Shown here one piece after another: positions 3,783-37,008 of a stretch of 37,495 nucleotides of DNA. Position numbers and translations under genes: made by a program. The stretch lies in contig DYJA01000065.1 in the NCBI GenBank assembly GCA_020723345.1, forward strand, positions 1-37,495, given 5' to 3'. Within the stretch, counting starts at the first letter, position 1. Each line of letters opens with the position of its first letter. Under the pieces are notes generated by a model that was not told the origin of the DNA, ran no database searches, and saw only the letters and a program-made list of their open reading frames with translations. Origin of the DNA: Candidatus Aquidulcis sp. (lineage in GTDB: Bacteria; Chloroflexota; Anaerolineae; UBA4142).

Positions 3783-3824
3783 AGCCAAATGTTCTGCTCG
3801 GAAGCGAATTCTGCCAAGCCGCGG

Positions 3825-4934: not shown

Positions 4935-4943
4935 GATCTGTTT

Positions 4944-4949
4944 CCCCCT
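4944..4949 (-). promoter_or_regulatory. Ribosome-binding site deciding the capF start
   Basis: AGGGGG on the minus strand, nine bases before the GTG at 4934. It overlaps the last codons of capE. It favours the 4934 start over the upstream GTG at 4952, which overlaps the capE stop but has no comparable site. Confidence 0.5.
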
Positions 4950-5974: not shown

Positions 5975-6035
5975 CTGGGCACTCCCCTTCCAACGCCGGT
6001 TGCTAGTGCATGTTTGACATCCCGGTTGTGAATCC

Positions 6036-6069
6036 AGACCTATCAGGTTTCCGAAAACCTGACAGGTCT
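6036..6069 (-). repeat. Intergenic hairpin between wzx and capE
   Basis: A 15-base inverted repeat with one mismatch (AGACCT.TCAGGTTT on the plus strand) surrounds a four-base loop. As minus-strand RNA the loop region reads UUUCGGAAA, a stable UUCG-like cap. It lies between the wzx stop (6102) and the capE ATG (5974). No T-tract follows it, so it is not a standard intrinsic terminator. It may be an mRNA processing or stability element that sets capEFG apart, or a dispersed palindrome. A small palindrome (AACCAA-C-TTGGTT, 6075-6087) lies just upstream. Confidence 0.6.
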
Positions 6070-6101
6070 ATGCAAACCAACTTGGTTAAAGATGCGCTAG
6101 G

Positions 6102-7412: not shown

Positions 7413-7436
7413 GAAGTAACCCCCAACATTCTCATA

Positions 7437-8783: not shown

Positions 8784-8792
8784 GACAATTCT

Positions 8793-11056: not shown

Positions 11057-11165
11057 TGTTTTCGATTCCTCGGTTAGAAACCAGAATGAGTGAACCCATC
11101 TTTTAGCACGGTCACATTGAATCCGGTCTCAACCCCAGTGAGCGATTCTTTCTGCCATATCTGGG

Positions 11166-13784: not shown

Positions 13785-13843
13785 GGTGGCAACTCCTTTG
13801 CTGCGAGAGTGATCGGTCACTGGTACGATACGGCGTAGTGCCC

Positions 13844-14641: not shown

Positions 14642-14778
14642 GTTTACCTCCACTTTCTGCCAATTTCAATGCTTCGACAAACCGCAAGTCGGCCTTTGTC
14701 GTTCGCTTGCCGGAATTTGTCCCAAGCAAAAGGTTGTCTCGCGCATGTCGTGCTGGCATCTGGCTGATAATGTTTTGA

Positions 14779-17454: not shown

Positions 17455-17504
17455 GAATTTCCTTCCTTCAACCGAACCTGCCACATTCAGCCAGATCCCA
17501 CTCT

Positions 17505-18998
17505 TCAGAGTTGATCCAGTTCGGTGTTATTCACGACAACGCCAATTGATCGGGCTTTGGCATTGACCAAGAGTTCGCAGGCAGCCCGGACCGACGATTG
17601 TCGCGCGCGTGCACTCTCAACGACCAATAGTACGCCGTCAACCGTCGAAGCGAGTGCGGCGGCATGCTTGACGGCAAGTAAGGCAGGGGTGTCTAGCACA
17701 ACCATATCGAATTGTTCTGCGGCTTGTTTGATCAAAGCCGTCATCTGACTCGAATTGATCAACTCGGACGGATTGGATGGGGCGGCTCCGCTGGAGAGTA
17801 TGGAAAGTCCGGAAATCCTTTTGCTATCTTGGACGACTTGAGCCAAAGAAGCGTTATGTTGGAGGATGTCGCTCAATCCATAGTCATTGGGCAAATCAAA
17901 GACCTTGTGCAGAGTGGCAAGTCGCAAGTCGCAATCCACAAGTAGTACTCTTTGCTTGGCTTGCGCCATGGCATATGCTAGGTTGATCGCAATCGTCGTT
18001 TTGCCTTCACTCGGTTCTGCGCTCGTAACCAAAAGCGTGCGTAGAGGAGCATTGTGATCGAGGGTGGAAAGATTTATGCGCAAGCGACGAAAGCCCTCCG
18101 CTTGAGGCGAAGTGCTGTCAAAGACGAGTCCGTGTTGCTTCCTTTTGCTTTGTGGAATGCCGCCGAGAACAACTCGCTCAGTCGCCTTTTCGATTTGATT
18201 CGTGGTATAGAGCGTTGTGTCCAGGTTCTCCAGCAAAAAGCCCAAGCCCAAGCCACCAAATAGACCAACCAGTAATCCGAGCGCGAGATTCTGTTCCGCC
18301 CGTGGTTGAGAAGGGTTCGCGGGGACGCTGGCCGGCTCGATGACGGAGAGCACTGGATCGCGCAACCCTTGTGTCATCCGAGCACGCTCGTATAACCCAA
18401 GTAGTGCCGAATAGGTATCTTCTTTCACCTTAAGTAAACGATTAGCACTCTCGATGCCCACCAAATCATTCGGCGTCGTGGTGACCAAACTGGAATATTG
18501 AGCGCGTGCCTGTTTCACTTCATCTTCTGCCTGAGCGATTTGATCGCTCAACATCTCTTGCGCGGACTTGCCACTTGCTGTACCTGTGGTTTTCACGAAG
18601 GCGATAAGCAGATTCGCTAACAGGTTCGCCGCATTTGCCGCAAGAACCGGATTGTGATTTTCGACCGTGATCTGCAATAGTTCAGAGTCCGCTGTGACAT
18701 TAACCTTGATGCTCGGCAGTTTTGCGAGCCCGAGTCGTCTCTGGAGTTCTCCAAGTATTGGCGCAGCCGTAGCCATCTTGGCATACGTGTTTCTCAGCCG
18801 ATCATTGTAGACAACATCGTAACTCTGGTATTCAAGCGATCCATGCGGCAGTGTAGCAACTCGCACCGTTGTTGTGGCTTGGTATACTGGTGTCGTCAAA
18901 AGTGTGCCGACAATCGCTACAACCACCGTCACGACCGTTGTAATGGCGATGATCCATTTTCGCCTAAGAATGATGGCGATATATGTTCTAAGTTCCAT
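17505..18998 (-). CDS. Wzc/CpsCD-like chain-length regulator fused to BY-kinase-type ATPase
   Basis: A 497-residue protein. The N-terminal Wzz domain has membrane helix 1 at about 14-36, a coiled-coil-prone extracytoplasmic part, and the proline-rich PANPSQP before helix 2 (about 238-258). The cytoplasmic ATPase has Walker A SEGKTTIAINLAYAMAQ (from 330), Walker A' VLLVDCDLR (351-359) and Walker B VVLDTPALL (433-441). Such proteins control polymer length and export in Wzx/Wzy systems. The C-terminus stops at GVVVNNTELDQL, with no tyrosine-rich tail, so cyclic autophosphorylation of the usual kind is doubtful. ATG 18998 has GAGGA six bases upstream and opens MELRTYIAIILRR. It is the first gene of the polysaccharide operon in this window. 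Confidence 0.88.
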   Translation of the reverse strand: MELRTYIAIILRRKWIIAITTVVTVVVAIVGTLLTTPVYQATTTVRVATLPHGSLEYQSYDVVYNDRLRNTYAKMATAAPILGELQRRLGLAKLPSIKVNVTADSELLQITVENHNPVLAANAANLLANLLIAFVKTTGTASGKSAQEMLSDQIAQAEDEVKQARAQYSSLVTTTPNDLVGIESANRLLKVKEDTYSALLGLYERARMTQGLRDPVLSVIEPASVPANPSQPRAEQNLALGLLVGLFGGLGLGFLLENLDTTLYTTNQIEKATERVVLGGIPQSKRKQHGLVFDSTSPQAEGFRRLRINLSTLDHNAPLRTLLVTSAEPSEGKTTIAINLAYAMAQAKQRVLLVDCDLRLATLHKVFDLPNDYGLSDILQHNASLAQVVQDSKRISGLSILSSGAAPSNPSELINSSQMTALIKQAAEQFDMVVLDTPALLAVKHAAALASTVDGVLLVVESARARQSSVRAACELLVNAKARSIGVVVNNTELDQL

Positions 18999-19260
18999 AT
19001 TTCTTCCTCTGACCCCAAGAGCTCCTCTCAAAATAAGAGCGGAAATCCACTAGGGAAAATACTTATATCGGGTTGGGATTTCTTAACCTCATTATGTCTA
19101 TATGGCGGTTGTCTCTCGCAGGATTGGAATTTCCTCAAAATGATCAACGGAATGGAGCATCTCCAACAAAGCAAAAACTGTGCGACAGGATACGAACCTG
19201 TCGCACAGGTTTCATCGTGGGAGGAGTTTATTACCGTGTCAAGAACTGAATCGTGTACGC
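18999..19260 (-). other. Intergenic region upstream of the polysaccharide operon
   Basis: A 262-base gap between the NarL-type regulator gene and the Wzc-like gene. Its right part holds an intrinsic terminator (19173-19209). The rest should contain the promoter of the polysaccharide operon. A TATAAG hexamer (minus strand, near 19063-19068) and a CATAAT hexamer (near 19091-19096) are possible -10 boxes, but neither has a convincing -35 partner. No riboswitch pattern was recognised. Confidence 0.5.
19173..19209 (-). terminator. Intrinsic terminator of the sensor kinase / NarL regulator operon
   Basis: A perfect 12-base inverted repeat (CTGTGCGACAGG, 19178-19189, and its complement 19197-19208) with a seven-base loop. 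Read on the minus strand it is followed by TTTTT. It lies about 50 bases after the stop of the NarL-type regulator and before the polysaccharide operon, so it separates the two transcription units. Confidence 0.85.
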
Positions 19261-22369: not shown

Positions 22370-22397
22370 ATTATATCGCCTACGCTGGATTTTGCAA
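22370..22397 (-). promoter_or_regulatory. Putative sigma70 promoter, leaderless, for the sensor kinase operon
   Basis: A perfect -10 TATAAT (22370-22375) and a -35 TTGCAA (22392-22397) are separated by 16 bases on the minus strand, within and just after the 3' end of the double-CheW gene. The expected start of transcription falls about six to nine bases after the -10, on the GTG (22364) or ATG (22361) of the kinase gene. That would leave no 5' leader. Confidence 0.5.
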
Positions 22398-23420
22398 TTC
22401 TTCGAAACGCAGAACCTGCGCAAGGTCGGGAATCACCACGGTCTCTTTTTCCAGATCGACTATTCCGCTGACCCAACGCTTTTCGATCACCGGGCTGGCG
22501 TGGCAAGATTCGTATGCCACCGGCAAACGGAGCGCCCGGATCGTTGGACGAATGACCAAGCCCGCAAATACATCCGCTTGCGCTTCGGCGGCGGCGCGCA
22601 CGATCAATAGCCGCGACCGCTCATTCTGAACCGCGCCAGTCGAGGGCAATCCCAATCGCGCATTCAGATCGATGACCGGCACAAGCCGATTACGCCAATC
22701 GATCAGACCCAGCACGAACGGCGGCGCGCCGGGCACGCGCGTCGGTCGTGCCGTCGTCAAGATTTCGGGAACCTGGGTGATGCTGAGCGCGAACGAGAGC
22801 ACGCGTTCACCCGGCGCGGGATCGCTGGTTGAGAACAGTAGAATCTGTTTGTCCTGTCGCGCTTGTTTCTGCGCGTCCGACATGATCGGTGACACGGACG
22901 GAGCATGATTTTTGAACTCCGCCGTTGAACGCGGAATCGCGTTAGCCGCTTGGCGCGCGCGCGGCGACGCGTCTGGATGCGCCTGCTCCGGCGCAAGCAG
23001 CAGAACCAGTTCTTCACCCAAGCGAATCGCGCCGCGAAAATAATTCGCCGGGGAGCAAGTGACGAGCGCGGGCAGTTGAACGAGTTGCGCGCTCGCAATT
23101 TCGACGACCTGGGAAACGCGATCCACCAACAATGCCCACGGACGATTCGATAGCGTGGTTACCGGATTCAAGACAACGACGCGTCCGTACCGCGCCGGAG
23201 TCGCCGTCGTGCGATCCAAGCGGCTGGCAAGATTGTAGACCGGGATATCGCCATTCTGGGCGGGCAGCCAACCGACTAGATCGCGCGATTCCGCAGCAGT
23301 TTTCATTTGATCGGCGCGTTGAATACTGCGCACCCAGCGCATATCCAATCCGTACGCTTCGTCGCCGATGTTACAGCGAATGAAGCGTACTCTTCCCATC
23401 GCGGCAGTTTCATTCATCAT
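22380..23420 (-). CDS. Double CheW-domain adaptor (ChpC position)
   Basis: A 346-residue protein with two CheW-like domains. The first (about 8-145, FIRCNIGDEAYGLDMRWVRSI) is divergent. The second (about 185-340) has the core GLIDWRNRLVPVIDLNARLGL and a C-terminal VSGIVDLEKETVVIPDL. A polar linker joins them. CheW domains bridge receptors and CheA. It lies immediately after cheB, where ChpC stands in the pseudomonad cluster. ATG 23420 overlaps the cheB stop (ATGATGA), which decides the start over the open frame at 23447. It may link a second receptor set or stabilise arrays; this is inference. Confidence 0.85.
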   Translation of the reverse strand: MMNETAAMGRVRFIRCNIGDEAYGLDMRWVRSIQRADQMKTAAESRDLVGWLPAQNGDIPVYNLASRLDRTTATPARYGRVVVLNPVTTLSNRPWALLVDRVSQVVEIASAQLVQLPALVTCSPANYFRGAIRLGEELVLLLAPEQAHPDASPRARQAANAIPRSTAEFKNHAPSVSPIMSDAQKQARQDKQILLFSTSDPAPGERVLSFALSITQVPEILTTARPTRVPGAPPFVLGLIDWRNRLVPVIDLNARLGLPSTGAVQNERSRLLIVRAAAEAQADVFAGLVIRPTIRALRLPVAYESCHASPVIEKRWVSGIVDLEKETVVIPDLAQVLRFEELQNPA

Positions 23421-24508
23421 GTTGCTCTCTCTCGCTTGCGCGCGCACTCGATTCTTAGCAAATGCGCGATTTGAGATGGCGACGCGACTTGGTCAACCAC
23501 GCCCCTTTCAATCGCGCGCTGCGGCATTCCATTCACCACACAACTCGCGGCGTCCTGCGCGAAGGTTTGACCACCTTTCGCATGAATCGCGACCAAGCCC
23601 AGCGTGCCATCGCTGCCCATGCCCGTCAGCACGATGCCCTTCGCGCGCGCGTGGTACAACTGCGCCACCGATTGCATCGTCACGTCAATCGAAGGACGAT
23701 GCCCACCGATTTCGGGACCTGGGTTCAATTCGACGCGCGCGTCCGTGCGCACGAGCAAATGAAATCCGCCGGGCGCGATCAGCACACTGCCCGGCTGCAA
23801 GCGGTCGCCGGTTTGCGCTTCCTTGACGCGCAGATGGCTGTGCCGATTCAACTGCGCGGCGAGCACACTGGTAAAACTCGCCGGAATATGTTGGACGATG
23901 ATGATCGCCGCCGAAAAATCCGCAGGCAGCGCGCCGATTAACTCGCGCAACGCCACGGGACCACCCGTCGATGCGCCGATCACGATCACCACGCCGGGCG
24001 AAAATGGCGTCGCGTCGAAATGCGCCGGCGCTTCGGATGGAATTTCGCGTGGCGGCGCGAATTCCAGATCGGCAACCGCGCGCCGTCGCACCGAACGGAT
24101 GACGTGAATCCGCGCCGCCGCGCGCACTTTGGCGATAATTTCGTGCCGCAACGCATCCGGATCAGTATCGACACCCGGCGTATATTTGAGAATGAAATCG
24201 ACTGCGCCCATTTCGAGCGCGCGGAGCGTGACCTGCGCGGCTTGCCGGCTGACGCCGCTGACCAACACGACCGGCGTGGGGCAATCGTACATGATCGCTT
24301 GCAGCGTTTGCTCGCCGTTCATCTCCGGCATTTCCAGATCGAGCGTCACCACCTCCGGGCGCAACTCTTTGATCAGCGACAACGCGTGCAATCCATTCAG
24401 CGCGGTTCCGACGACCTTGATGTCCGGTACGGTTTGGAGATGAGCCGTCATCAAGCGGCAGACGAACGGCGAATCGTCCACCACCACCACGCGAACTGGG
24501 TCGGTCAT
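23417..24508 (-). CDS. cheB: Chemoreceptor methylesterase CheB (ChpB position)
   Basis: A 363-residue CheB. The receiver domain has VVDDSP and Asp57 in VVTLDLEMPEMNG, with Lys in FILKYTPG. The esterase domain holds the catalytic triad Ser180 (IGASTGGP), His207 (VQHIP) and Asp300 (TGMGSDG). It demethylates or deamidates receptor glutamyl residues and provides adaptation, opposing CheR. ATG 24508 overlaps the cheA stop by four bases, and its own stop overlaps the start of the double-CheW gene. It is cytoplasmic. Confidence 0.95.
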   Translation of the reverse strand: MTDPVRVVVVDDSPFVCRLMTAHLQTVPDIKVVGTALNGLHALSLIKELRPEVVTLDLEMPEMNGEQTLQAIMYDCPTPVVLVSGVSRQAAQVTLRALEMGAVDFILKYTPGVDTDPDALRHEIIAKVRAAARIHVIRSVRRRAVADLEFAPPREIPSEAPAHFDATPFSPGVVIVIGASTGGPVALRELIGALPADFSAAIIIVQHIPASFTSVLAAQLNRHSHLRVKEAQTGDRLQPGSVLIAPGGFHLLVRTDARVELNPGPEIGGHRPSIDVTMQSVAQLYHARAKGIVLTGMGSDGTLGLVAIHAKGGQTFAQDAASCVVNGMPQRAIERGVVDQVASPSQIAHLLRIECARKRERAT

Positions 24509-27411
24509 GCCGAACTGACTTTCCTCGATCCAAGAATCAGATTGCGAACGGTGTTGACCAACGCATCGTCTTGGTACGGTTTGACGATGTACTCCGCCGC
24601 GCCCAACTCCAATGCTTTGCGGCGATGCTTTTCCCCCGCGCGCGACGTGAGCATCGCAATCGGAATGTTGCGATATTCGGCTTGCCCTTTGAGAATCGCC
24701 ATGAGTTCGAATCCACCCATGCGCGGCATTTCAATGTCGAGCAGGATCAGATCGGGCAACTCGCTCGAACGTTGAATCAATTCCAGCGCTTCCAATCCAT
24801 CTTTCGCGGCAATCGGTCGCCAACCGGTGCGCTGGATCAAATTCGCGACCACGCGGCGCACGCTCACGGAATCGTCGACGATCATCACCGACCACGCTTT
24901 GTGCGCGCCGGTCAACGTACGCGTTGGAAGGGAGATCGAAGGCAACGTTGGTTCTTCAACGTGCGGCGTCAACAGATCGATGGGATTGACGATGAGAACG
25001 ACCGCGCCGTCGCCCATGAGCGTTGCGCCCGCGACGCCTGGCACGCGGCGCAAGTGATTGCCCAGCGTCTTGATGACGATTTCACGACCGGTGAGCAACT
25101 GTTCGACGACGAGCGCGACTTGTTCTGCCCCGGTATTGACGATCAAAACCGGCACGCGTTCCAGATTGGCGTCGGCAGGTTGCTTGAGATTCATCAACTC
25201 GCCCAAACGATGCACCGGATAAACGCGACCGCCCACGCGCAGCACCGGCTCTTCGCCCACGGTTTCGATCTCTTTGCGTTCGACGCGCAGAATTTGCGCG
25301 ACGGAACTTTGGGGAATCGCGAACGTTTCGCCGTTCGTTTTCACGAGCAGCGCGCGCATCACGGCGAGCGTCATCGGCAAACGAATAACGAACGCGATGC
25401 CTTTGCCCGGTTCCGACTTGACGCTGAGCGTGCCTTTGAGTTTATGCACGTTCGTCTTGACGATGTCGAGACCGACGCCGCGTCCGGACACCTGGCTCAC
25501 TTCGCGCGCCGTGCTGAAACCAGGGAGAAAGATCAGCGCGTTCAATTCGTCGTTGGAAATTTTCGCCGCGTTCGTTTCAGAAATAAAACCGCCGCGGATT
25601 GCCGCCGCGCGGAGGAGTTGCAGTTCCAGTCCCGCGCCATCGTCGCTGATCTGAATCACGACTTGGCTGCCTTCGTACGATGCTTTCAAAATGATCCTGC
25701 CGGTTTCCGGCTTGCCCAGCACTTGGCGCAATTCCGGCGGCTCGATGCCGTGATCGACGGCGTTGCGTAAAAGATGCAGCAGCGGATCCGCCATTTCTTC
25801 CAGCACGGTCTTGTCGAGTTCGATGTGTTCGCCTTGCAAAATCAATTCGACGAGTTTGCCTTGATCGTGCGCGATGGTACGCACCGCGCGATGCAAGCGC
25901 GTCGCCAGCGTTGCGAGGGGGACCATGCGGACGCGCATCAACTTGTCTTGCAACTCGCTCGACAGACGACCTTGCCGCGCCAGCACGCTATCCAAATCGC
26001 CGACGAGCGCGGCAAATTCTGCGGCGACGGTGCGAATATCCGTCGTAGTTTCGGTCAACTCGCGGCGCAAGCGATGAAACTCGGTATAGCGATCCATTTC
26101 GAGCGCGTCGAATTCCGAAAACGTTGGCGCAATCCGCGGCGCGGTTCCGGCAATGACCGACGCCATCGCGCCGCCGCCCAGCGTGCTCGCTTCGAATTGC
26201 GTTTCGATGTTGGTGGAGACGCGGCGCAAGCGTTCGCCGCTGGCGCGCAAATCTTCGACCATGCGCGCGAAATCTGTCATGCGTTGTTCCAACGTCGTAC
26301 GCGAGATTGCCACTTCGCTGACGAGTCGCGCCAATTCGTCGAGCCGTTCAATCGGCGCGCGCACGACTTGCCCGGAGAGACGCGGCGCAGTTGGCGCGGC
26401 GCGTTCCGTCGCTGCGGGTTCGCTCGGCGGCTCCAGTCCGGCGAGATCAAGCGCAGGTTCATCGGGCAGCGGCTCGCTGTGAGGCAACTGGGGTTCGGGC
26501 GACGGCGCTTGATCAAGCCAGGTCGAGTACCGCGCGTACAAATCCCGCAAGTGATTTTGCATCGTCGCATCGTCGAAGCCGCCCGCGATCAAATCTTCCA
26601 GCGCATCGGACGACGCAAACAAAAGTTGCATCGTGTCCGGCGTGATCGTCATCGCGCCTTCGTACAATCGGTCGAGCAAGTCTTCCATGCGATGCGCCAA
26701 CTGCGCGACGACGCGCAAGCCCACCGCGCCCGCCGCGCCTTTGAGCGTATGCACGCGGCGGCGAATGTTCTGCACCCGGTTCTTGTCGTCGGGATGTCGT
26801 TCCAAATCCGCGAGATTCGTTGCGATCTCGCGCAAATGGTCTTCGGCTTCCAGCGCGAATGCTTCGACGAGTTCGGGCGGCAAATCGTCGGCGTGCAATG
26901 ATTCGATGACCGGCGCGGATGCCGGCGGCGACGATTCTGGTTCTGCGGTTGGAATCGGCGCGGTCTCTTTGGCGACTTGAACGAGAACTTGCTGAACCGT
27001 CGCCGCATCGTCTACTTCCGGCAAACCGCGCAGACGACGAAATCCCAACGTGACCTGGGTCAGCAACGCTTTTTCGTCCAAGGTCCCAGCCCAAGTCGAG
27101 TCCAGATAATTTTTAATGTGCGCGACGGTCTCGCGCATGAGCGCGGCGGCTTGTGCGCTCATCGGCAATTGTCCCGCCGCGATTTCTTCGAGCGCCTCTT
27201 CGAAATCAAACGCGATGTGGCTCAAGCCCGCCAAGCCGACCATCGCCGCCGCGCCTTTGATCGTGTGAACGAGGCGATGCGTTTCCGCCAACACTTTGGG
27301 TTGATTCGGATTGGCGCAGAGCACATCCACAAATTTCAAGATGGTCGGCAAATAACTTTCGGCTTCTTCGATAAATCCTTGCAGAACTTCGCGGTTGACC
27401 GTTCTCATCAT
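24505..27411 (-). CDS. cheA: Hybrid CheA kinase: two Hpt domains, kinase core, CheW domain, receiver (ChpA-like)
   Basis: A protein of about 968 residues. Hpt domain 1 has its phospho-histidine at about 49 (HTIKGAAAMVGL) and Hpt domain 2 at about 221 (HTLKGAAGAVGL). An acidic Pro-rich linker follows, then dimerisation helices and the ATPase with HLLRNAVDHGIE (N box), DDGAGL (G1) and SGRGVGLDIVKTNV (G2). Next come a CheW-like P5 domain and a C-terminal receiver with VDDSVSVRR and Asp near 892 in LILLDIEMPRMGG. Several Hpt domains plus a receiver are typical of ChpA/PixL-type kinases linked to type IV pili. The ATG at 27411 (GGAG eight bases upstream) is preferred to the longer frame from 27444. 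Confidence 0.95.
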   Translation of the reverse strand: MMRTVNREVLQGFIEEAESYLPTILKFVDVLCANPNQPKVLAETHRLVHTIKGAAAMVGLAGLSHIAFDFEEALEEIAAGQLPMSAQAAALMRETVAHIKNYLDSTWAGTLDEKALLTQVTLGFRRLRGLPEVDDAATVQQVLVQVAKETAPIPTAEPESSPPASAPVIESLHADDLPPELVEAFALEAEDHLREIATNLADLERHPDDKNRVQNIRRRVHTLKGAAGAVGLRVVAQLAHRMEDLLDRLYEGAMTITPDTMQLLFASSDALEDLIAGGFDDATMQNHLRDLYARYSTWLDQAPSPEPQLPHSEPLPDEPALDLAGLEPPSEPAATERAAPTAPRLSGQVVRAPIERLDELARLVSEVAISRTTLEQRMTDFARMVEDLRASGERLRRVSTNIETQFEASTLGGGAMASVIAGTAPRIAPTFSEFDALEMDRYTEFHRLRRELTETTTDIRTVAAEFAALVGDLDSVLARQGRLSSELQDKLMRVRMVPLATLATRLHRAVRTIAHDQGKLVELILQGEHIELDKTVLEEMADPLLHLLRNAVDHGIEPPELRQVLGKPETGRIILKASYEGSQVVIQISDDGAGLELQLLRAAAIRGGFISETNAAKISNDELNALIFLPGFSTAREVSQVSGRGVGLDIVKTNVHKLKGTLSVKSEPGKGIAFVIRLPMTLAVMRALLVKTNGETFAIPQSSVAQILRVERKEIETVGEEPVLRVGGRVYPVHRLGELMNLKQPADANLERVPVLIVNTGAEQVALVVEQLLTGREIVIKTLGNHLRRVPGVAGATLMGDGAVVLIVNPIDLLTPHVEEPTLPSISLPTRTLTGAHKAWSVMIVDDSVSVRRVVANLIQRTGWRPIAAKDGLEALELIQRSSELPDLILLDIEMPRMGGFELMAILKGQAEYRNIPIAMLTSRAGEKHRRKALELGAAEYIVKPYQDDALVNTVRNLILGSRKVSSA

Positions 27412-27454
27412 GCGATTATCTCCGGGAGAGAAATTGCGTCGCAACGTCTCTACG

Positions 27455-28375
27455 CTAGAATAGCGCGATGCGTTGATAAATCAATGAATCCGGTTGACGA
27501 ACCAGTTGAATGCCGGGCAATTTCAGTCCGACCACTTCGGCGGGCGCGAGAAAGAGAAATCCACCTGGATTCAAGCACTGACACAGCCGCTGCACGACGG
27601 CGAGGCGGCGCTCCAACTCAAAATAAAGCAAAACGTTCTGACAAAAAATAATATCTTGCCCGGAGACCCAGTACGCCGGGTCAATCAGATTGAGCGTCCC
27701 GAATTGCGTGACCGCGCGCACCGCGTCCACGACTTGATATTTGCTCGGCGCGCCTTTCTCTTCCGCCACGACGCGCAGATAGCGATGGCACTGGGCTTGC
27801 GGCATGTAACGCACTTCGCTGGGTTTGTACTGCGCGCGTCGCGCTTTCTCCAGCGCCGGTAGATCGATGTCGGTGCCGGTGATCTTGAGTTGCCAACCCG
27901 CGCGCTGCATTCCTCTTTCGTCGGCAGTCGCGAGAAAATCGAGAAACGCCATCGCGAGCGAGTACGCTTCTTGTCCCGTCGCGCAGCCCGCGCTCCACAG
28001 CGTAATCGAGTTGACGCCGTGCCGATTTTTTTCTTTCAGCAACTCTGGCAGCACGCGCCCCACCAGCGCCTCGAACGAGGGCGCGTGTCGAAAAAAACTC
28101 GTTTCGTTGTTGAGCAACAGCGTCAGAATATTCGCCCATTCGTCTTCGCCGCGCGCGTTATAGACGACGTAATGATAGTATTCGCTGTAACTCTTGATTC
28201 CGCGCAGCCGCATCCGTTCCCAGAGACGTTGCCGCAAATAGCGTTGACGATTTTGGGTAAAGTACAGTCCGCAGCGTTCTTGGATGAACTTGTGCCACAC
28301 CGCGTACTCGACGGCGGACATGACGGGCGGGATGGAGTCTGCTGGAAGATTCCATTTTTCTTCCTCATGCTCCAT
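27455..28375 (-). CDS. cheR: Chemoreceptor methyltransferase CheR (PilK position)
   Basis: A 306-residue CheR. An all-helical N-terminal domain (about 20-95, with RYLRQRLWERMRLRGI) ends in NNETSFFRH. The SAM-binding motif SAGCATGQEAYSLAM lies at about 128-142. ITGTDID and IIFCQNVLLYFELERR follow, the latter a variant of the usual CRNVLIYF. It methylates glutamates on the adjacent receptor. ATG 28375 has AGGAG nine bases upstream. It is 17 bases after the receptor gene and 43 bases before cheA. Confidence 0.94.
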   Translation of the reverse strand: MEHEEEKWNLPADSIPPVMSAVEYAVWHKFIQERCGLYFTQNRQRYLRQRLWERMRLRGIKSYSEYYHYVVYNARGEDEWANILTLLLNNETSFFRHAPSFEALVGRVLPELLKEKNRHGVNSITLWSAGCATGQEAYSLAMAFLDFLATADERGMQRAGWQLKITGTDIDLPALEKARRAQYKPSEVRYMPQAQCHRYLRVVAEEKGAPSKYQVVDAVRAVTQFGTLNLIDPAYWVSGQDIIFCQNVLLYFELERRLAVVQRLCQCLNPGGFLFLAPAEVVGLKLPGIQLVRQPDSLIYQRIALF

Positions 28376-28392: not shown

Positions 28393-31300
28393 CTAGTTCT
28401 GCGAAACACTCGGCAACTTGAACGTGCTCACCGAAGCGCGAAGTTCTTCCGCCAACACGGCGAGGTTGTTGATCGATACGGCGGCTTGCTTGGTGCCTGC
28501 GGCAGTTTGCTGGGTCACCTGCGAAATGTCGGTCATCGATTGCGACAAATTTTCCGCGCCGCGCGCCTGTTGCTTGGACGCGAGCGAGATCGATTGGATC
28601 AACTCCGCCAAGCGCGACGACACACCTTCGATTTCACCAAGCGCTTGACCGGCTTGGGTCGCCAGTTTCGATCCTTCGACTACTTCGCGCGTGCTGTCTT
28701 CCATCGCCGCGACGGTCTCGTTCGTTTCACCCTGGATCGTCTTGACCAGCGTTTCGATTTGGCGCGTCGCGCTGGTGGAACGTTCTGCCAGCCGCTCGAC
28801 TTCTTCCGCGACGATGGCGAAACCGCGTCCGGCTTCACCTGCCATTGCCGCTTGAATCGACGCGTTGAGCGCGAGGATACTTGTGCGGTCGGCAATGTCG
28901 TCGATGATGCGGACGATTTCGGAAATTTCCTGGGACGATTCGCCGAGGCGCTTGATGCGTTTTGAAGTTTCTTGCACTTGATCGCGGATCCGATTCATCG
29001 CGCTCATGGTTTCTTGCACCGCTTGCGTACCGCGCTTGGCGTTGTTCAGCGCTTGCTCAGCCACCGTGTTCGACAAGACCGCGTTATCGGACACTTGTTG
29101 AATGGAGACCGCCATTTCTTCCAGCGCGGCGGACGTATCGACGATTTGCTGTGCTTGCGTTTCGGATCCTTGCGCCAGATGTTCTGCCGTCGTTTGAATC
29201 TCGCCTGCCGCCGAACTTACTTGCAAGGTCGTGTCTTGCACGCGGCTGATGATCTGGCGCAGTTGCGCGATCATATAGTTGAACGCGTCGGCGATAGCGC
29301 CGGTCATTTCGGCGGTGACAGTCGCTTCTTTCGACAAATCGCCTGCCGCGACGCCGGACACTTCGTCCAGCAGGGTCATGATGGCGCTTTGCATTGATTC
29401 GCGTTGTTCGCGGGATTGGATCAGCGTGAGGGTATTGTCCAACATCGCGTTTAGCGAAGTCGCCATCGTGCCCAATTCGTCGGTGGAGAGGACGGGCGTG
29501 CGCGCGCTAAATTCGCCGATACCGATTTGGCTGAACAATCGCATGATCGCGTTGATCTGGGTCACCAACGCGCGCGAGAGAACAAACGCGACGGTGATGA
29601 CGAGAATGATCGTCACGATGACGACGAACGCCGTAGTCGCCGCCAGAGTTCGCACCGGCGTAAAGACTTCGGCTTCGTCGATTTCGGCGAGGAGCGCCCA
29701 GCGGACGCCTTGCGGATTATTCGCGCTCGGCGCTTCAACATCGACGAGCGACCACACACCCAAGACCGGAATACCGCGGTAATCGGGATAGACCGCGTTG
29801 CCCGGTTTGCCTGCCAAAGCATTCTGCGAACCGACGGTATCCACTTTGAATTGCGGGTTCAACACCGTCGTCGTCGTGTTGAGGTCTTTGAGAAAGCGCG
29901 AGTCGCTGCGCCACAGTTTGTCTTGCCCGACGAGATACGCTTCACCCGAACTGCCGAGACCGGTGCGCTCCTGCATCGTGTCGTTGATTTCTTTCAGGGG
30001 CAACTGCACTGCCAAGACCAGATCGACATTGCCGCTCGCGTCGAGGAGCGGCGCTGCGGCGAAGGCGGCGGGCGCGTTGTTGGACGGCGCGTACGGCGCA
30101 AAATCGGAGAAGGCGAGCGTCTTGGTTTTGAACACTTGGGCAATGAGTTTACCCAGGTTCGTGTCTTTATACGGACCGGTGAGAATGTTGGTTTGATAGT
30201 CGGGTTCGTGTTGAACGGTGTAAAAGATATAGCCGTCCTCACCGATCAAGAAAACGTCGTAATACCCGTAGCGATCAGCCAGCAGCGTGTAATGATCTTT
30301 CTGCTGACCCGAGGCGATTGGCGAAAGACCTTCGGCGAGCGATTGACTGGTCACCAGCGCCCACTTGAGATTGAGGAATTGATAAGGTACGCCAACACTC
30401 ACTTCATACGCGCTAGTGGAACCGACTTTCACCTCGGTGGCTATTTTGCCGGCAAGCGCACTTTCAATTTCTTTGCTGGCGGCGTGCTCACCGCCGATCT
30501 TGCCTTGCTTGACCACGCGGTCGGAGCGATAGAGGAGTTTGTTGCCGACCGGCGCAATCGCATAAGTTTCGGCGGTGCTACTCATCCCCGCGCGGTCTTG
30601 GATGATCGCGTTGATGCTCGCCGAGGATACGCGATAAGCCAGAATACCCACCTGGCGATTTCCATCGTACACCGGCGCGCCGATAAACATCACCCAATCC
30701 TTGCCGTACAAAGCCAGGTCGGCGATGTACGCTTTGCCGGACGGCGCGGCTTTGAGTTGTTGATACAGCGTCGCCAAGCCGCTGTCTTTGTAAGCGCCGG
30801 TCGTGACATTCGTTCCAAAGGCATCGTCTTTCAGCGCGCTGTAGACGACGTTGCCGGACGAATCGAGGAGGAACGCGTCCAGATAACCGTGAATCTTGGT
30901 ATAGCCGGAGAAAAAAGAGTGTTGGGCGTTGTGAACTTTGCTGTACTCGCCGCCGTCCGCGGCGTCTTCCAGCGCGGCTTTGCCGAGATACAGACCGCGC
31001 ACGCGGGTCGCGCCTTGGTTGCGAAACGCGGCAGTGAATGCCGGCGTCGCGTTCACAATATCCGGATCGCTTGCCACGTCGACCACATCTGCTTCCCACG
31101 TTCGCATCACGTCGAGCAAAGCGCGCGCTTTGAGTTGCGTGATGGCTTGGTTTTTGTTGTACGTTTCATTGCGCGTTTTGCTGGCAGTGTCGCCCAGGTC
31201 TTGAATATCGCGGCGAAGGCGGGTGAACACTTTGTTCAGAGTCACCACACGAGATGCTTCGACGGAGCGCAGCGCGTTGATCGCTTGCTCCGACAATGCG

Positions 31301-31458
31301 CTGGACGCCACGCCGTAACCGATGATACCCAGGATGATCAGCGCGGGAACGGATAGCGCCAAGAACGCGAGCAGCAATTTGTTGCGAATACTGCTCGCAA
31401 AGAATCGAACCACGCGGAAATCGGCAAGGCGACTCCACAATCCTTGTTTCTCTTCCAT
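28393..31458 (-). CDS. PilJ-like methyl-accepting chemotaxis receptor with duplicated sensor domain
   Basis: A 1021-residue receptor. Membrane helix 1 lies at about 28-50, a very large extracytoplasmic region at 50-625, and helix 2 at about 628-650, then one or two HAMP-like segments. The signalling hairpin tip (from 865) reads [20 protein letters not shown], the PilJ form of the usual NAAIEAARAGE. The sensor holds two related copies (Cache-like). [15 protein letters not shown]...[12 protein letters not shown] (about 192-240) and [15 protein letters not shown]...[12 protein letters not shown] (about 398-445) align clearly. There is no C-terminal CheR-tethering pentapeptide. ATG 31458 follows AAAGGAG. 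It is the only receptor in the operon, so it is presumably its main input. Confidence 0.95.
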
Positions 31459-31508: not shown

Positions 31509-32384
31509 TTATGCGATTTCAAACCGGCGTATCTCCGGCGAGAGCAATAACTTGTTGAAATCCAACACGACGATCATGCGCCCAGTGTGTTCGTAGATCC
31601 CTTGCAAATACGGCGCGAGGCGATCTTCAATCGACGCGGTCGGCGGCTTGATCTCGTCGAGCGGCACGGAACGCACGCCGACGACTTGATCGACGTACAT
31701 GCCGATCGTCACTTCGGCTGATCGCGATTGCATCATCAAAACGCGCGCGGTGGGCAGATAACCCGCTTGCCCGATCCCCAGAAAAGCGCGGAGGTCCACC
31801 AGCGAAACAATATCGCCGCGCAAGTTGGTGACGCCCATGACCCAGTCTGGCATATTCGGCACGCTAGTTACGGCGGGTGGGCGTTCGATTTCGATCACGT
31901 TGCTCAACGCCGTGGCGTAATCGGTTCCGCGCATCGAAAAAATAATGAGTTGCTCGATTGCGCCGGTGGCGCGCGCCGGGATCGGCGATTCCGCTGGAGT
32001 GAGCGTGGCGAGATTCGGCGTCGCTTCAAAAGTTGCGTCGATGTTTTCGATCAGCGTCTCGAGCACCGTGTTGGCGTCAATCGCTAAATCGCGCTCCGCT
32101 GTTTTTTTGCGAGGACGCGGCGTTTTCGGAATTTTGGATTTCGTTGGGGCGGAAGGTTTGGCTGACTTGGCAATCGTGGCGGCGAGCCACTCTGGAACTA
32201 CCGCTTGCGCTTGATCCAAAGACACGGGCTGAGTGGCGCTGGGTTCTTCGTTCACGACAACCGGTTTCGGTTGATCGGCTTGCGCTTGCGCGTCGAACTG
32301 GGTTGACGCGGAATCGTCGTCCTTCACTTCCGCGAAGGGGTCGCGCGAAAAACTATGCAGCGTCTTTTGTTTATCTTTACCCAT
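31509..32384 (-). CDS. CheW-domain protein with long disordered N-terminus (PilI position; ParP-like candidate)
   Basis: A 291-residue protein. Residues 1 to about 140 are low-complexity and charged, rich in Lys, Pro, Ala and Gln (KPSAPTKSKIPKTPRPRKK). A single CheW domain follows (about 145-288), with FSMRGTDYATALSNVIEIE, VMGVTNLRGDIVSLVDLRAFLG and GMYVDQVVGV. Its position between PilH and the PilJ-like receptor equals PilI. Ordinary PilI lacks such an extension, whereas ParP of Vibrio has a Pro-rich N-terminus before a CheW-like domain and partners a ParA-type ATPase. Here a ParA-like gene directly precedes it and overlaps by eight bases (ATGGGTAA). ATG 32384 is preferred to the TTG at 32393. 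Confidence 0.88.
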   Translation of the reverse strand: MGKDKQKTLHSFSRDPFAEVKDDDSASTQFDAQAQADQPKPVVVNEEPSATQPVSLDQAQAVVPEWLAATIAKSAKPSAPTKSKIPKTPRPRKKTAERDLAIDANTVLETLIENIDATFEATPNLATLTPAESPIPARATGAIEQLIIFSMRGTDYATALSNVIEIERPPAVTSVPNMPDWVMGVTNLRGDIVSLVDLRAFLGIGQAGYLPTARVLMMQSRSAEVTIGMYVDQVVGVRSVPLDEIKPPTASIEDRLAPYLQGIYEHTGRMIVVLDFNKLLLSPEIRRFEIA

Positions 32385-33132
32385 TGTTCGCAACCCTTTC
32401 GACTAAGCGCGCATAGTCCAGCGCGCCCGCGCTCGTGGGCGCGTATTCGTAAATGCTTTTCTGATGTCCTGGGGCTTCGGCAAGTTTGACGTTCATTCGA
32501 ATGGGCTCGGCGATTTGTCCCGCGAAATGCCGTTGCAGAGTTTCCAGCGTTTCGGTGTCTTTACGCAAGCGATGGTCGTAAAAGGTGGGAACGATGAGCG
32601 ACAAACGCAAGCGATGTTCTTGCATTCGACCGATGGATTTCAGCGTTTGAACGACCTGGCGCGTGCCGACGAGCGCGAGATAATTCATCGCGACGGGGAC
32701 GATGACTTCTTCGGTGTATCGCAGCGCGCTTTCGCCGAGGAGATTGGCGGACGGCGAATAATCAAGGATCACGAAATCGTAGCCGTCTTGCAGCGATTGG
32801 AGTCGCTCGACGAACATCTGATACGCGGTCGCGCGATTGCCCATCTTCCAGAATTCGCCCTCGGCTTCGAGCAAACTCGCATCGCTCGGAACGAGGTCGA
32901 GCCGCTCGCGCGCGTTGACGATACATTGGCGCGGCTCGACCATCTTGAGCAGCAGGTGTTTCGTCGAATATGGCGCGCAGACACCCAGGTAGGTGGCGAG
33001 ACTGCCTTGCGCGTCCATGTCCACACACAGCACGCGCGCGCCGCGCAGAGCCAAGCCCGCTCCGAGATTGACGACGGTGGTGGTTTTCGCGGTTCCACCT
33101 TTATAATTCAGCACTCCGATAATGCGGCACAT
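32377..33132 (-). CDS. ParA/Soj-type ATPase within a chemosensory operon
   Basis: A 251-residue deviant-Walker ATPase. Walker A' is NYKGGTAKTTTVVNLGAGLA (9-28), then LCVDMDAQGSLATYLG, the Walker B FVILDYSPSANLL, and a C-terminal YEYAPTSAGALDYARL, all Soj-like. There is no N-terminal DNA-binding extension. No parB or parS is seen, and the gene lies between pilH and a CheW gene. A role in positioning chemosensory arrays (as ParC and PpfA do) therefore fits better than plasmid or chromosome partition; this is inference. ATG 33132. Confidence 0.9.
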   Translation of the reverse strand: MCRIIGVLNYKGGTAKTTTVVNLGAGLALRGARVLCVDMDAQGSLATYLGVCAPYSTKHLLLKMVEPRQCIVNARERLDLVPSDASLLEAEGEFWKMGNRATAYQMFVERLQSLQDGYDFVILDYSPSANLLGESALRYTEEVIVPVAMNYLALVGTRQVVQTLKSIGRMQEHRLRLSLIVPTFYDHRLRKDTETLETLQRHFAGQIAEPIRMNVKLAEAPGHQKSIYEYAPTSAGALDYARLVERVANNG

Positions 33133-33162: not shown

Positions 33163-33528
33163 CTACAAAAGTTTCGCGACGTTGGAGAGCAAGTCCGCAT
33201 CGGCGAAGGGCTTGGTCATGTACTCATCCGCGCCCTGCTTGAGTCCCCAAAAACGATCGGCGTCCTGGGTCTTGCTGGTCAAGAGCAAAATCTTGATGTC
33301 CTTGGTGTCGGGCGCGGTCTTGAGTTGACGACAAACTTGAAAGCCATTCATTTTGGGCAAGATGACATCCAGCACGATCACTTGAGGATGTTCGTGCATC
33401 GCTTTTTGCAGCGCGTCTTCGCCGTCCACGGCGGTGACCACGCGATAGCCCTTGTCTTTCAAAGGCGTCGCGATCAACTTTAAATCCGTCGGGCTGTCGT
33501 CGACTACGAGAATCGTTTCGGTTGGCAT
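33163..33528 (-). CDS. pilH: Single-domain response regulator, PilH-like
   Basis: A 121-residue CheY-like receiver. ILVVDDSPTDLKLI carries the acidic pair, VIVLDVILPKMNGFQVC the phospho-acceptor Asp, and LLLTSKTQDADRFWGLKQGADEYMTKPF the Thr/Ser and Lys. The WGLKQGA segment matches PilH-type regulators. ATG 33528 has AGGGAG seven bases upstream; the open frame starts eight codons earlier. In twitching systems PilH acts on retraction or as a phosphate sink. It is followed by the ParA-like gene after 30 bases. Confidence 0.9.
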   Translation of the reverse strand: MPTETILVVDDSPTDLKLIATPLKDKGYRVVTAVDGEDALQKAMHEHPQVIVLDVILPKMNGFQVCRQLKTAPDTKDIKILLLTSKTQDADRFWGLKQGADEYMTKPFADADLLSNVAKLL

Positions 33529-33618
33529 TGTGTTTCTCCCTGTGGTTTTCAAATCTGTGTTAATCCGCGTTTATCTGTGTCCTATATTGGAATCTATTTC
33601 TTACCGCCAAGACGCAAA
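33529..33618 (-). repeat. Intergenic segment with three 10-base direct repeats
   Basis: Ninety bases between the unknown helical-protein gene and pilH. On the plus strand 33552-33581 reads as three related decamers (AATCTGTGTT, AATCCGCGTT, TATCTGTGTC). Next to the upstream stop codon lies GCGTCTTGGCGGT (minus strand). The words look like pieces of an intergenic repeat I recall from several bacterial genomes, but copy number cannot be judged here. The repeats could equally be a regulator site phased at one helical turn. Confidence 0.5.
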
Positions 33619-34200
33619 TCAGAAAGACAATCGCTCGACCATGTTGGTCAGGTCGGTCATAAAAATGTTGACCGCGTCTTCACACTCGACGCGCGCGGTT
33701 GGCGTTTGAAGGGACGCAAGAAATCGTCTCAAGTACTGTTCCAGGATCCGTAGCAGCGCGCGGGTTACTTGGCGCAAATTTTCGCGTCGCCGGTCGGGTT
33801 CCCCTTCTGCGTTGGAATCCAATTTTGCGATGGCAGCAAGCGACAAGCGGTGATTTCGAACTTCGAGCAAACGGGCGAGCGGGTATGCGCTTTCGGTCTC
33901 GGCGCGGATCAATTCCAAGGTGGTTTTGCCTTCGCCCGCGAGCCGGATTTCTGTCGCCCAGAATTCCGTTTCATAAAATTGCGCCGCGCGGTTCGCCAGA
34001 TCAGCCAGGAGTTGTACGGCAAGCAGCGGATCCTTTTGGGCTGGGCGACTGCCCAGCTTGACCCGCATTTGTTCGAGACTGGCAAGCAAGAGAATCAATT
34101 TATTTTCTAACGCGCCATCTTTGGCGCGATCTTCAGGCGTCCAGACCGGCAGCATCTCGTTCGCGCGTCCTGAATCTTTCAAAACATCTTCCGTTGCCAC
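33619..34200 (-). CDS. Unknown all-helical protein in the chemosensory operon
   Basis: A 193-residue protein not recognised from any family. It is soluble, without signal peptide or membrane helix. Its pattern suggests several amphipathic helices, for example ALENKLILLLASLEQMRVKL (about 30-49), LLAVQLLADLANRAAQFYETEFWATEIRL, RLLEVRNHRLSLAAIAKL and a long RRRENLRQVTRALLRILEQYLRRFL helix. It has few Gly and no obvious catalytic motif. The GTG start has GAGGG six bases upstream. It lies between pilG and pilH and is co-directional with short gaps, so a scaffold, phosphatase or Hpt-like role in this pathway is possible; no HxxKG-type Hpt motif is present. Coding status is supported by context and ribosome-binding site. 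Confidence 0.75.
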   Translation of the reverse strand: MATEDVLKDSGRANEMLPVWTPEDRAKDGALENKLILLLASLEQMRVKLGSRPAQKDPLLAVQLLADLANRAAQFYETEFWATEIRLAGEGKTTLELIRAETESAYPLARLLEVRNHRLSLAAIAKLDSNAEGEPDRRRENLRQVTRALLRILEQYLRRFLASLQTPTARVECEDAVNIFMTDLTNMVERLSF

Positions 34201-34238: not shown

Positions 34239-34814
34239 TCAGATGATCGAGCGCGCGCGCTTGACTGGCTCTTGGGTTGGATCATTTTCCGATTGGGTTT
34301 TGTTTGCGTTTTCAGCGTCGATATATTTCTGAACGGTCTGCAATAGCGTAGTGGCTTCGAACGGTTTTGTAATATGGCTTGCCGCGCCCGCCGCGCGTCC
34401 ACGCACTTTGTCGAAAAAACCGTCTTTGCCGGAAAGCATGATCACGGGAATATGTTGGGTGGCGGGATTGCTCTTGACGATGCGACACAGTTGATAGCCA
34501 TCCATGCGCGGCATCGTAATATCGAGCAGAATCAAATTGGGGTGTGTATCGTTCACTTTGGCGAGTCCCTCCAAACCATCCGGTGCGGAGACGACGTGAT
34601 AGCCATGTTTCTCCAAGGTGATGGCGACCAACTTGCAAATCGTCGGGCTATCGTCGACGACCAGAATCTTTTTGGGGGACGCCGCGTTGCGCGTTGCTGG
34701 ATGCTGATTGGTCGCTTGCGCCGCCGCTTGGCGCTGCACGAGCCAATCCACTTGGCGTTTCAATTCGATGTCTGCGGAATGAATTTGCTGCGCGCGTTGC
34801 AGGTGGTGTGGCAT
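34239..34814 (-). CDS. pilG: Response regulator, PilG-like, with terminal extensions
   Basis: A 191-residue receiver protein. Residues 1-47 are a polar N-terminal extension. The receiver (48-168) has ILVVDDSPTICKLV, phospho-acceptor Asp98 in LILLDITMPRMDGYQLC, and VIMLSGKDGFFDKVRGRAAGAASHITKPF. The SGKDGFFDK segment is strikingly PilG-like. A charged C-terminal tail follows. In twitching systems PilG promotes pilus extension and cAMP signalling downstream of ChpA. It is the first signalling gene of the operon. ATG 34814; the ribosome-binding site is weak. Confidence 0.9.
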   Translation of the reverse strand: MPHHLQRAQQIHSADIELKRQVDWLVQRQAAAQATNQHPATRNAASPKKILVVDDSPTICKLVAITLEKHGYHVVSAPDGLEGLAKVNDTHPNLILLDITMPRMDGYQLCRIVKSNPATQHIPVIMLSGKDGFFDKVRGRAAGAASHITKPFEATTLLQTVQKYIDAENANKTQSENDPTQEPVKRARSII

Positions 34815-34943: not shown

Positions 34944-35108
34944 CTACTTGCCCTTTTCTTTGACGAACTGATCGATGCCCTCTTCTTTCCACACCTTCAA
35001 CGTCGCCTGATCCTTCGGATCGATTTTCACGCCGATGGCATTGACGGGGTAATCGTACCTCTTTTGAACTTCAATCCAATTCTTTTTGACGGCTGGATCC
35101 AACGGCAT
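34944..35108 (-). CDS. 54-residue protein of unknown function, second tandem copy
   Basis: A 54-codon gene with GGAGG nine bases before ATG 35108 and a TAG stop. The protein begins MPLDPAVKKNWIEV, has the central PVNAIGVKIDPKDQ and ends KEEGIDQFVKEKGK. It matches the neighbouring copy at 46 of 54 residues. About twenty codons differ silently, which indicates selection on the protein. It is soluble and highly charged, with likely helices at about 5-18 and 32-50. No family is recognised. It lies between two hairpins, upstream of the chemosensory operon. Confidence 0.8.
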   Translation of the reverse strand: MPLDPAVKKNWIEVQKRYDYPVNAIGVKIDPKDQATLKVWKEEGIDQFVKEKGK

Positions 35109-35132
35109 AAGGCGTTACCTCCCTTTTTCCCG

Positions 35133-35191
35133 AACCTTGCGAAGATTGAACTTGTTTCCGACTTTTCGTACCATCCAATCTTCGCAAGGTT
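35133..35191 (-). repeat. Long perfect hairpin between the tandem 54-residue protein genes
   Basis: A perfect 16-base inverted repeat (AACCTTGCGAAGATTG, 35133-35148, complement 35176-35191) with a 27-base loop. It begins 20 bases past the stop of the upstream small gene and ends just before the ribosome-binding site of the next. No T-tract follows on either strand, so an RNA processing, attenuation or dispersed palindromic element is more likely than a standard terminator. Confidence 0.65.
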
Positions 35192-35211
35192 TAGTCATCT
35201 CTGCCTAGCCC

Positions 35212-35376
35212 TTACTTTTTGCTTTCCTTTTGGAATTGGTCGATGCCTTCCTCCTTCCACACTTTTAATGTGGCTTGATCTTTCGGATCGATCTTGACGC
35301 CGATCGCGTTGACGGGAAAGTCGTACTTTTTCTGGATCTCAATCCAATTCTTTTTGATGGCTGGATCAACTGGCAT
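35212..35376 (-). CDS. 54-residue protein of unknown function, first tandem copy
   Basis: A 54-codon gene with AGGAGG eight bases before ATG 35376 and a TAA stop. The protein begins MPVDPAIKKNWIEI, shares PVNAIGVKIDPKDQATLKVW with the second copy, and ends QFQKESKK. Substitutions between copies are conservative over the first 47 residues (Val/Leu, Ile/Val, Lys/Arg, Phe/Tyr) and looser at the C-terminus. It has a strong ribosome-binding site, no signal peptide and no membrane segment. Function is unknown; an abundant small adaptor or stress-type protein is possible. A weak promoter candidate lies about 70 bases upstream. Confidence 0.82.
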   Translation of the reverse strand: MPVDPAIKKNWIEIQKKYDFPVNAIGVKIDPKDQATLKVWKEEGIDQFQKESKK

Positions 35377-35572: not shown

Positions 35573-35601
35573 CGATCGCGGCTCTGGATGAGCCGCGATC
35601 G
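35573..35601 (-). terminator. Intrinsic terminator of the M16 peptidase gene
   Basis: A perfect, GC-rich 12-base inverted repeat (CGATCGCGGCTC, 35573-35584, complement 35590-35601) with a five-base loop, about 30 bases past the peptidase stop. On the minus strand it is followed by TATTTATAT. It ends the single-gene peptidase transcript before the small tandem genes. Confidence 0.7.
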
Positions 35602-35632: not shown

Positions 35633-36937
35633 TTACTCGAAATCTTTCAATAACTTGGTCAACGAATCCTGATTAAAGTGATCGGGCGATTCCGGACTGG
35701 TCACGGCAATCGCGACCTGCCGCAGCGCGTCGATCAGAACTTGATTGGCGAGGTCTTGCGCCATCGCGTTATCGACCGCTTGAATTTGTTCCAGCACCTC
35801 GTCTGTAGAAATCGCTCGACCAAAGTACAATTCCTGGGTCGCCAAGCGACTCATGCGCGTGTGCGAACCTTCACCTGAAATGAGATGCTGTCCGCGAATT
35901 TGCATCTTGGCTTTGACCAGCTCTTCATCGTCGATTGGTTCTGCGCCGGTCAACACTTGCCACAGTTCGACGAGCGTCAATCCGAGTACGGAGGTGAGAT
36001 ATTCTGGCGCAGTACTTCCCGCGACCACCAACATTCCATCTTCGCGATAGGCGAGATATTCGGAACTGATCGAATAAACCAGTCCGCGGTTTTCGCGCAA
36101 TCGTCGGTACAGTCGCGAACTGATCCCGCCGCCCAAAACGTTGTTGAGTACGTGCAACACATAGCGACTGGGGTGAGCATACGGCAAAGCGCGCAAGCCC
36201 AGAGAAAAGTATGCCTGCGAGACCGGGCGATAATCCATTGCCACGCCGCCGGTGAAGGACGGGAGCGTCATCGGGCGTGGCTGGCTTTGCCCCAGCATTC
36301 GCCAGAACGCATCGCGAACCTGCGCGACGAAATCGGCGTGATTCACATTGCCTGCCGCCGCGATGATCAAGCGCTCCGGCAGGTAATTCGTTTGCGCAAA
36401 GTAGATCACATCTTCGCGCGTAAATCGCCGCACCGTTTCGGCTGAACCCGTAATGGGACGACCGAGGGGATGATCGCGCCAGCAAAAAGATTTGAGCAAA
36501 TCGTCGGCGCGTTGTTCGGGATCGTCGTTGCGTCCGGCGATCTCGCGCAAGATGGCATTCTTTTCGCGTTCCAAGCCCTCTTCAGGAAAGATGGAGTTGA
36601 GCAACAGATCGCCAAGTAGATCAATCGCATACGGCGCGTACTCGTCGAGCACCGTCGCGTAATAGCACATGTAATCCTTTGCGGTAAATGCGCCGATGCT
36701 TCCGCCCGCGCCATCCATCATCCGCGCAATTTGCATCGCATCGCGCCCGTGCGTGCCCAGAAACATGCCGTGCTCGATGAGATGCGACAAACCATATTGC
36801 GCTGGCGCTTCATCATACGGACCGGTATCGATCAAGCACGCCATGGCGATGGAGCGAATTCCTGGCATCGTTTCGGTAACTACTCGAACGCCATTCTCCA
36901 AAGTCGTCTTGCGAACTGCATTTTCGCGCTCAAGCAT
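35633..36937 (-). CDS. M16-family zinc metallopeptidase (insulinase-like, processing-peptidase type)
   Basis: A 434-residue peptidase. The inverted zinc motif HLIEH is at 52-56 (His52, Glu55, His56), with the third ligand Glu132 in NAILREIAG. FTAKDYMCYYATVL and the C-terminal half with RLYRRLRENRGLVYSISSEY are family-typical. It is a cytoplasmic-looking single-chain M16B member without signal peptide; the substrate is unknown. The open frame reaches 36997, but the promoter lies at 36980-37008. The ATG at 36937 has AGGAG just upstream, which fixes the start. No second M16 gene is adjacent in the window. Confidence 0.92.
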   Translation of the reverse strand: MLERENAVRKTTLENGVRVVTETMPGIRSIAMACLIDTGPYDEAPAQYGLSHLIEHGMFLGTHGRDAMQIARMMDGAGGSIGAFTAKDYMCYYATVLDEYAPYAIDLLGDLLLNSIFPEEGLEREKNAILREIAGRNDDPEQRADDLLKSFCWRDHPLGRPITGSAETVRRFTREDVIYFAQTNYLPERLIIAAAGNVNHADFVAQVRDAFWRMLGQSQPRPMTLPSFTGGVAMDYRPVSQAYFSLGLRALPYAHPSRYVLHVLNNVLGGGISSRLYRRLRENRGLVYSISSEYLAYREDGMLVVAGSTAPEYLTSVLGLTLVELWQVLTGAEPIDDEELVKAKMQIRGQHLISGEGSHTRMSRLATQELYFGRAISTDEVLEQIQAVDNAMAQDLANQVLIDALRQVAIAVTSPESPDHFNQDSLTKLLKDFE

Positions 36938-36979
36938 GAGTCTCCTCGTTTGTGTCGCTTGAAACATGTTGGTGGCGCA

Positions 36980-37008
36980 AGAATACTCGTTAATCAACCC
37001 GGAGTCAA
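36980..37008 (-). promoter_or_regulatory. Sigma70-type promoter of the M16 peptidase gene
   Basis: A -35 TTGACT (37003-37008) and a -10 TATTCT (36980-36985) with a 17-base spacer on the minus strand, predicting a start near 36973 and a leader of about 36 bases. The spacer contains the near-palindrome GTTGATTAAC. The upstream gene ends at a strong terminator, so a promoter is needed here. Confidence 0.6.

Follow-up and report, generated by a model that had tools for sequence, protein, structure and literature searches.

Two short open reading frames of 54 codons lie in tandem beside a chemosensory operon of Candidatus Aquidulcis sp. (Chloroflexota; contig DYJA01000065.1), within a window of 37,495 nucleotides, by which we mean the whole stretch of DNA analysed. 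Are they genes, and what might such small proteins contribute to a sensing system? An earlier note on this DNA had described two frames of equal length, identical at 46 of 54 residues and each preceded by a ribosome-binding site, and from about 20 silent codons against eight replaced ones had concluded that they are real genes selected for their protein sequence. Each of these statements has held up. Both frames lie on the minus strand (Table 1) behind a Shine-Dalgarno-like GGAGG or GGAGGT, the codon comparison gives 21 silent and 8 amino-acid-changing differences at 77% nucleotide identity, and homologues open in the same frame are found in four phyla, with overwhelmingly synonymous change between them. 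The two frames are tandem paralogues of a new family of small proteins of about 51 residues, and they are the only copies revealed by a search of the whole 6.3-Mb genome.

Table 1. Features of the window discussed in the text
Feature	Coordinates	Strand	Remarks
M16 zinc peptidase, subfamily adjacent to small gene	35633..36997	-	HLIEH active-site motif; signal peptide not evident
Small protein copy A	35212..35376	-	54 aa, ATG start; sequence MPVDPAIKKNWIEIQKKYDFPVNAIGVKIDPKDQATLKVWKEEGIDQFQKESKK; AlphaFold2 pLDDT 89.8
Perfect inverted repeat between small genes, 16 bp	35133-35148/35176-35191	-	z -5.0
Small protein copy B	34944..35108	-	54 aa, ATG start; 85% identical to A; orthologue of L006 second copy
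Perfect inverted repeat after copy B, 12 bp	34893-34904/34924-34935	-	inside longer stem; z -3.9
Receiver-domain protein directly downstream of small genes	34239..34814	-	matches C-terminal half of L006 TPR-receiver protein
193-aa protein	33619..34200	-	counterpart of L006 DUF4388 (PATAN) protein, PATAN domain missing
CheY-like single receiver domain	33163..33552	-	
ParA-like ATPase	32377..33132	-	same position in L006 and L011
CheW-like protein	31509..32393	-	
Chemoreceptor (MCP)	28393..31458	-	
CheR methyltransferase	27455..28375	-	
CheA kinase with C-terminal receiver domain	24505..27444	-	
CheB methylesterase	23417..24508	-	over curated cut-off of NF001965
Second CheW-type protein	22380..23447	-	assigned by its sequence and weak BLAST matches to other CheW proteins

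A conserved family of small proteins

A single scan with one genome per species yielded 57 relatives, each with its locus, in Chloroflexota, Desulfobacterota, Planctomycetota and Acidobacteriota; this set was seeded by exact peptides and is biased to close relatives, and the profile and M16-first searches agree with it in the picture they give. Nearly all of the homologues are open across the same 51 residues and most have a ribosome-binding site. The small protein is stand-alone in every true match, with no fusion to a larger protein among the relatives, and each of the ten genomes that were searched completely has one or two genes. In 27 diverse members 11 positions are invariant (W11, Q15, P21, V22, A24, G26, I29, D33, T36, W40 and I45), and conservation spans the whole length of the protein, with no division into leader and core. 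It is slightly basic and lysine-rich, and a signal peptide is not evident in its sequence.

The dN/dS ratio asked for in the earlier note was 0.02–0.08, and near 0.03, for those pairs with an estimable dS, which was saturated in some other pairs. In 62 sequences the entropies at codon positions 1, 2 and 3 were 0.63, 0.43 and 1.43 bits. The conserved frame and the excess of synonymous change are those of a protein-coding family under purifying selection. Short length and tandem arrangement might have suggested chance frames or a repeated DNA element instead of genes. A frame kept in four phyla, the dN/dS and the codon-position pattern already refute this idea, as does the presence of only two copies genome-wide, and its probability is negligible.

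Two tandem copies are also present at loci L006, L007 and L011; at L011 the B-like copy comes first. The copies in the window pair one-to-one with those of L006, A at 96% identity over the full length and B at 94% over 51 columns, compared with 85% between A and B, so the duplication is older than the split from L006 and both duplicates have been retained. The paralogue tree rests on 51 columns, too few to resolve the deeper history of the copies.

More divergent members, with 49–65% identity, were found in a genome reached only through its M16 peptidase (G1251). At its locus, L076, they are encoded at 1223-1375 (minus strand) and 4090-4227 (plus strand), about 2.7 kb apart. One stands behind the M16 gene and the other at the contig-side end, behind a response-regulator gene with what by eye is a DNA-binding-type tail. 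PVDA(M/L)GRPI replaces PVNAIGVKI at this locus.

The small protein is rare and patchy across genomes. Convincing matches were obtained in 3 of 99 near relatives, 2 of 400 Chloroflexota, 5 of 297 Desulfobacterota, 1 of 294 Planctomycetota and 2 of 247 Acidobacteriota, each draw including its centre genome, and matches were either very strong or absent. Since most genomes do without it, it is not a general part of chemosensory arrays. An origin from phages or plasmids was rejected, as no relative was found among viral contigs or in PLSDB.

Database matches and predicted fold

The earlier note had not recognised the family, and indeed Pfam, NCBIfam and PHROGs gave nothing convincing, whether searched with the single sequence, by a scan of members or with the profile. 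Comparison with PDB sequences gave no meaningful match. Thus, despite its conservation, the small protein is included in no curated protein-family library searched. A few weaker similarities were examined and set aside. The PDB search gave weak matches, among them WD40 proteins, which appeared through a short DxxTLxxW stretch summed over their repeats. A profile match in genome G432 (E 3.4e-4) falls in a stretch that reads by eye as alanyl-tRNA synthetase; it was treated as chance because no such synthetase occurs among the PDB profile matches up to E 10. A match in G090 (E 0.009), also put down to chance, lies within a 521-aa frame resembling tRNA nucleotidyltransferase by eye.

AlphaFold2, given an alignment of 56 rows, predicts that the protein folds compactly (mean pLDDT 89.8, pTM 0.67), with a helix at residues 5-15, two short strands near 22 and 27, and helices at 34-42 and 45-48. 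Foldseek found no match to this model in the PDB, so the structure offers no clue to mechanism.

The chemosensory neighborhood

Genes for CheW, MCP or CheA occur within about 4 kb of the small gene in 49 of the 57 loci, and in 53 if receiver genes are counted. The earlier note had raised the question of whether the neighbors are always chemosensory; they nearly always are. Several of the remaining loci are short contigs or have short flanks. L035 and L039 are real exceptions, where no chemosensory gene lies closer than about 4 kb; at L039 the neighboring genes encode, among others, a Tll0287-like protein and a methyltransferase. By this conserved linkage with CheA, CheW and MCP the small protein is placed among chemosensory components.

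At 43 loci the next recognised downstream gene codes for a receiver protein, at 7 for an MCP; the upstream neighbor is an M16 peptidase at 43 and CheW at 5. In Chloroflexota, Planctomycetota and Acidobacteriota the order is M16, small gene, TPR-receiver and/or PATAN protein, CheY and CheW, and in many Desulfobacterota it is CheA, CheW, CheW, M16, small gene, CheY and MCP. In others the small gene is followed by PATAN-receiver, CheY and CheW genes, behind a sigma-54 regulator. Linkage that persists across such differing orders points to a functional connection with the signalling system, and not with any one neighbor in particular.

Compared with the sister operon at L006, the window operon displays two domain losses in adjacent genes. 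The receiver protein next to the small genes is without the N-terminal TPR part of about 170 aa, and the following protein is without the PATAN (DUF4388) domain but has kept its first 14 residues.

Of the proteins encoded in the operon, the small one is also the most highly conserved. Its median identity to the window copy is 73%, a figure somewhat inflated by the way the loci were found, against 49% for M16, 45% for the response regulator, 53% for CheY, 46% for MCP, 38% for CheA and, for the pair of CheW proteins, 32% and 26%; the values are those of the best match per locus, which for receiver proteins is not always the orthologue. It is more conserved than M16 in every locus that has both. 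Such conservation suggests that the protein probably makes several contacts at once.

A different role, that of a DNA- or RNA-binding regulator of the operon, or of a metabolic protein that accompanies the che cluster and makes no contact with signalling proteins, would suit its basic, lysine-rich character and the stable hairpins beside both window genes. The long hairpin noted earlier after each gene does exist in the window, and L006 has a similar one after its copy B. Across the family, however, hairpins with z<-3 occur at 19% of 58 homologous gene ends compared with 25% after neighboring genes (p=0.78), and they were therefore rejected as a family feature. In addition, the family searches turned up no DNA- or RNA-binding family, and the linkage to che genes holds in very different orders. 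A regulatory or metabolic role is accordingly quite improbable.

A dedicated M16 peptidase

The earlier note made no mention of a peptidase; the link to M16 was added by the present analysis. In 43 of the 57 loci the gene immediately upstream of the small gene encodes an M16 peptidase, an assignment supported by PF00675 and PF05193 domains together with HxxEH and a downstream glutamate. Both HxxEH and the conserved later glutamate are intact in 42 of 42 aligned neighbors, and no signal peptide was evident in those inspected.

When the search began with M16, 298 genomes of the class gave three close relatives and no more (G000, G066 and G1251), 297 Desulfobacterota genomes likewise gave just three (G490, G578 and G771), and all adjoin a small gene (6 of 6). 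The M16 genes next in rank, with identities of about 36%, belong to the generic kind, and none of the 17 that were examined has the small gene or che genes nearby. Conversely, the small gene has no M16 of this subfamily nearby in 14 of the 57 loci, and also in G504 and G607. This M16 subfamily therefore depends one-way on the small gene, in that the enzyme seems to require the small protein and the small protein does not seem to require the enzyme. This favors a direct relationship between the two and yields a prediction open to direct test. The open literature, with most subscription journals outside it, yielded no relevant paper joining chemosensory genes with M16 or insulinase.

Some M16 peptidases, those of the PqqF family, process short peptides. 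One might then suppose that the small protein is chiefly a substrate, a precursor cut by M16 into a peptide signal that is read by the linked receptor system. The position of M16 directly upstream, the finding of this subfamily only beside the small gene in the searches made and its intact active-site residues speak for such a scheme. A mere peptide precursor, on the other hand, would hardly be expected to be conserved over its full length, to have a compact predicted fold and to persist where M16 is not nearby, and the small protein has no evident signal peptide. We regard this scheme as unlikely.

A proposed role

We infer that the small protein is an accessory chemosensory component, most likely a cytoplasmic adaptor in physical contact with the array, and that M16, where present, most likely acts on the adaptor or its complex, bringing it under proteolytic control; we would give this reading a probability of roughly 60%. 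The small protein would dock on the signalling complex, either CheA/CheW/receptor or a receiver-domain output protein, and tune it, and the dedicated M16, where present, would act on the small protein or on a complex marked by it. The two loci without che genes and the absence of the protein from most genomes count against a chemosensory component. A more specific version can be put forward only tentatively, with the odds against it: the adaptor might set the array's state, and a dedicated cytoplasmic M16 might destroy or trim this adaptor, giving a slow, irreversible adaptation beside the methylation controlled by CheR and CheB. With these findings, the inventory of a well-studied kind of bacterial sensing system gains an overlooked small protein, and with it a dedicated peptidase, in at least four phyla.

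Relation to known systems

In the cyanobacterial Pix/Tax operons the order is PATAN receiver protein, CheY, CheW, MCP and CheA. Several of the homologous loci are similar, in that their small gene is followed by one for a PATAN(DUF4388)-receiver protein and then by those for CheY and CheW. The window's own proteins differ in having lost their PATAN and TPR parts. PATAN response regulators have been linked to type IV pili in cyanobacteria, and the sections of that article considered here describe neither a 51-residue gene nor an M16 peptidase in the cyanobacterial operons (PMC7690835).

The Pil-Chp system of Pseudomonas resembles the window operon in its receptor, CheW, CheA with a receiver domain and two receiver proteins, but the window genome has no PilT match. 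A 2025 review of Pil-Chp makes no mention of a peptidase, protease, insulinase or small protein (PMC12632253). In six Chloroflexota hosts, all drafts (G000, G012, G066, G372, G489 and G1251), PilT had no match at E<=1e-40, a further difference from Pix/Tax; each of the other nine genomes searched has one. The Chloroflexota hosts do carry ATPases of the T2SSE type. FliG was found in only 4 of 15 host genomes, the window genome (G000) not among them. Membership in the type IV pilus (Tfp/Pil-Chp) class, judged by PilT in draft genomes, or in the flagellar chemotaxis class, judged by FliG, was thus not indicated. The earlier note had placed the small genes ahead of pilG. The gene that follows them (34239-34814) indeed codes for a receiver domain. 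The name is unsupported, since the product is a generic receiver protein without a curated PilG match and searches of the genome gave neither PilT nor FliG.

The window M16 shares PF00675, PF05193 and HxxEH with YfmF/YfmH and PqqF, but falls far short of the NCBIfam cut-offs, with 85 bits where YfmF requires 285. It belongs to a separate subfamily linked with che loci.

Sda-like connectors of two-component systems are tiny folded proteins encoded apart from the kinase, and offer a lead. The 51-residue protein is likewise tiny, is predicted to be folded, and is encoded apart from the kinase on which it may act; it differs from Sda in length and sequence, and matches no solved structure meaningfully.

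Possible outputs and further hairpins

Surface structures or polysaccharide are plausible outputs of the sensing system. An exopolysaccharide cluster (2661-19031, minus strand) follows immediately after the che operon and a LuxR-type response regulator in the window, encoding UDP-GlcNAc 2-epimerase, a flippase, a Wzy-type ligase, a sugar transferase, a BcsB-like protein and Wzz/ATPase; it is possibly one such output.

Just past the stop codon of M16 there is a perfect 12-bp hairpin with a 5-base loop (35573-35601), possibly a terminator or attenuator between the M16 and small genes. In the 100 bases after the small gene, L020 and L021 have extremely stable hairpins, whose energies are -70 and -77 kcal/mol (z -11) and whose arms are long and near-perfect. 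These arms stay paired between the two loci, and the hairpins may represent a repeat element in Planctomycetota.
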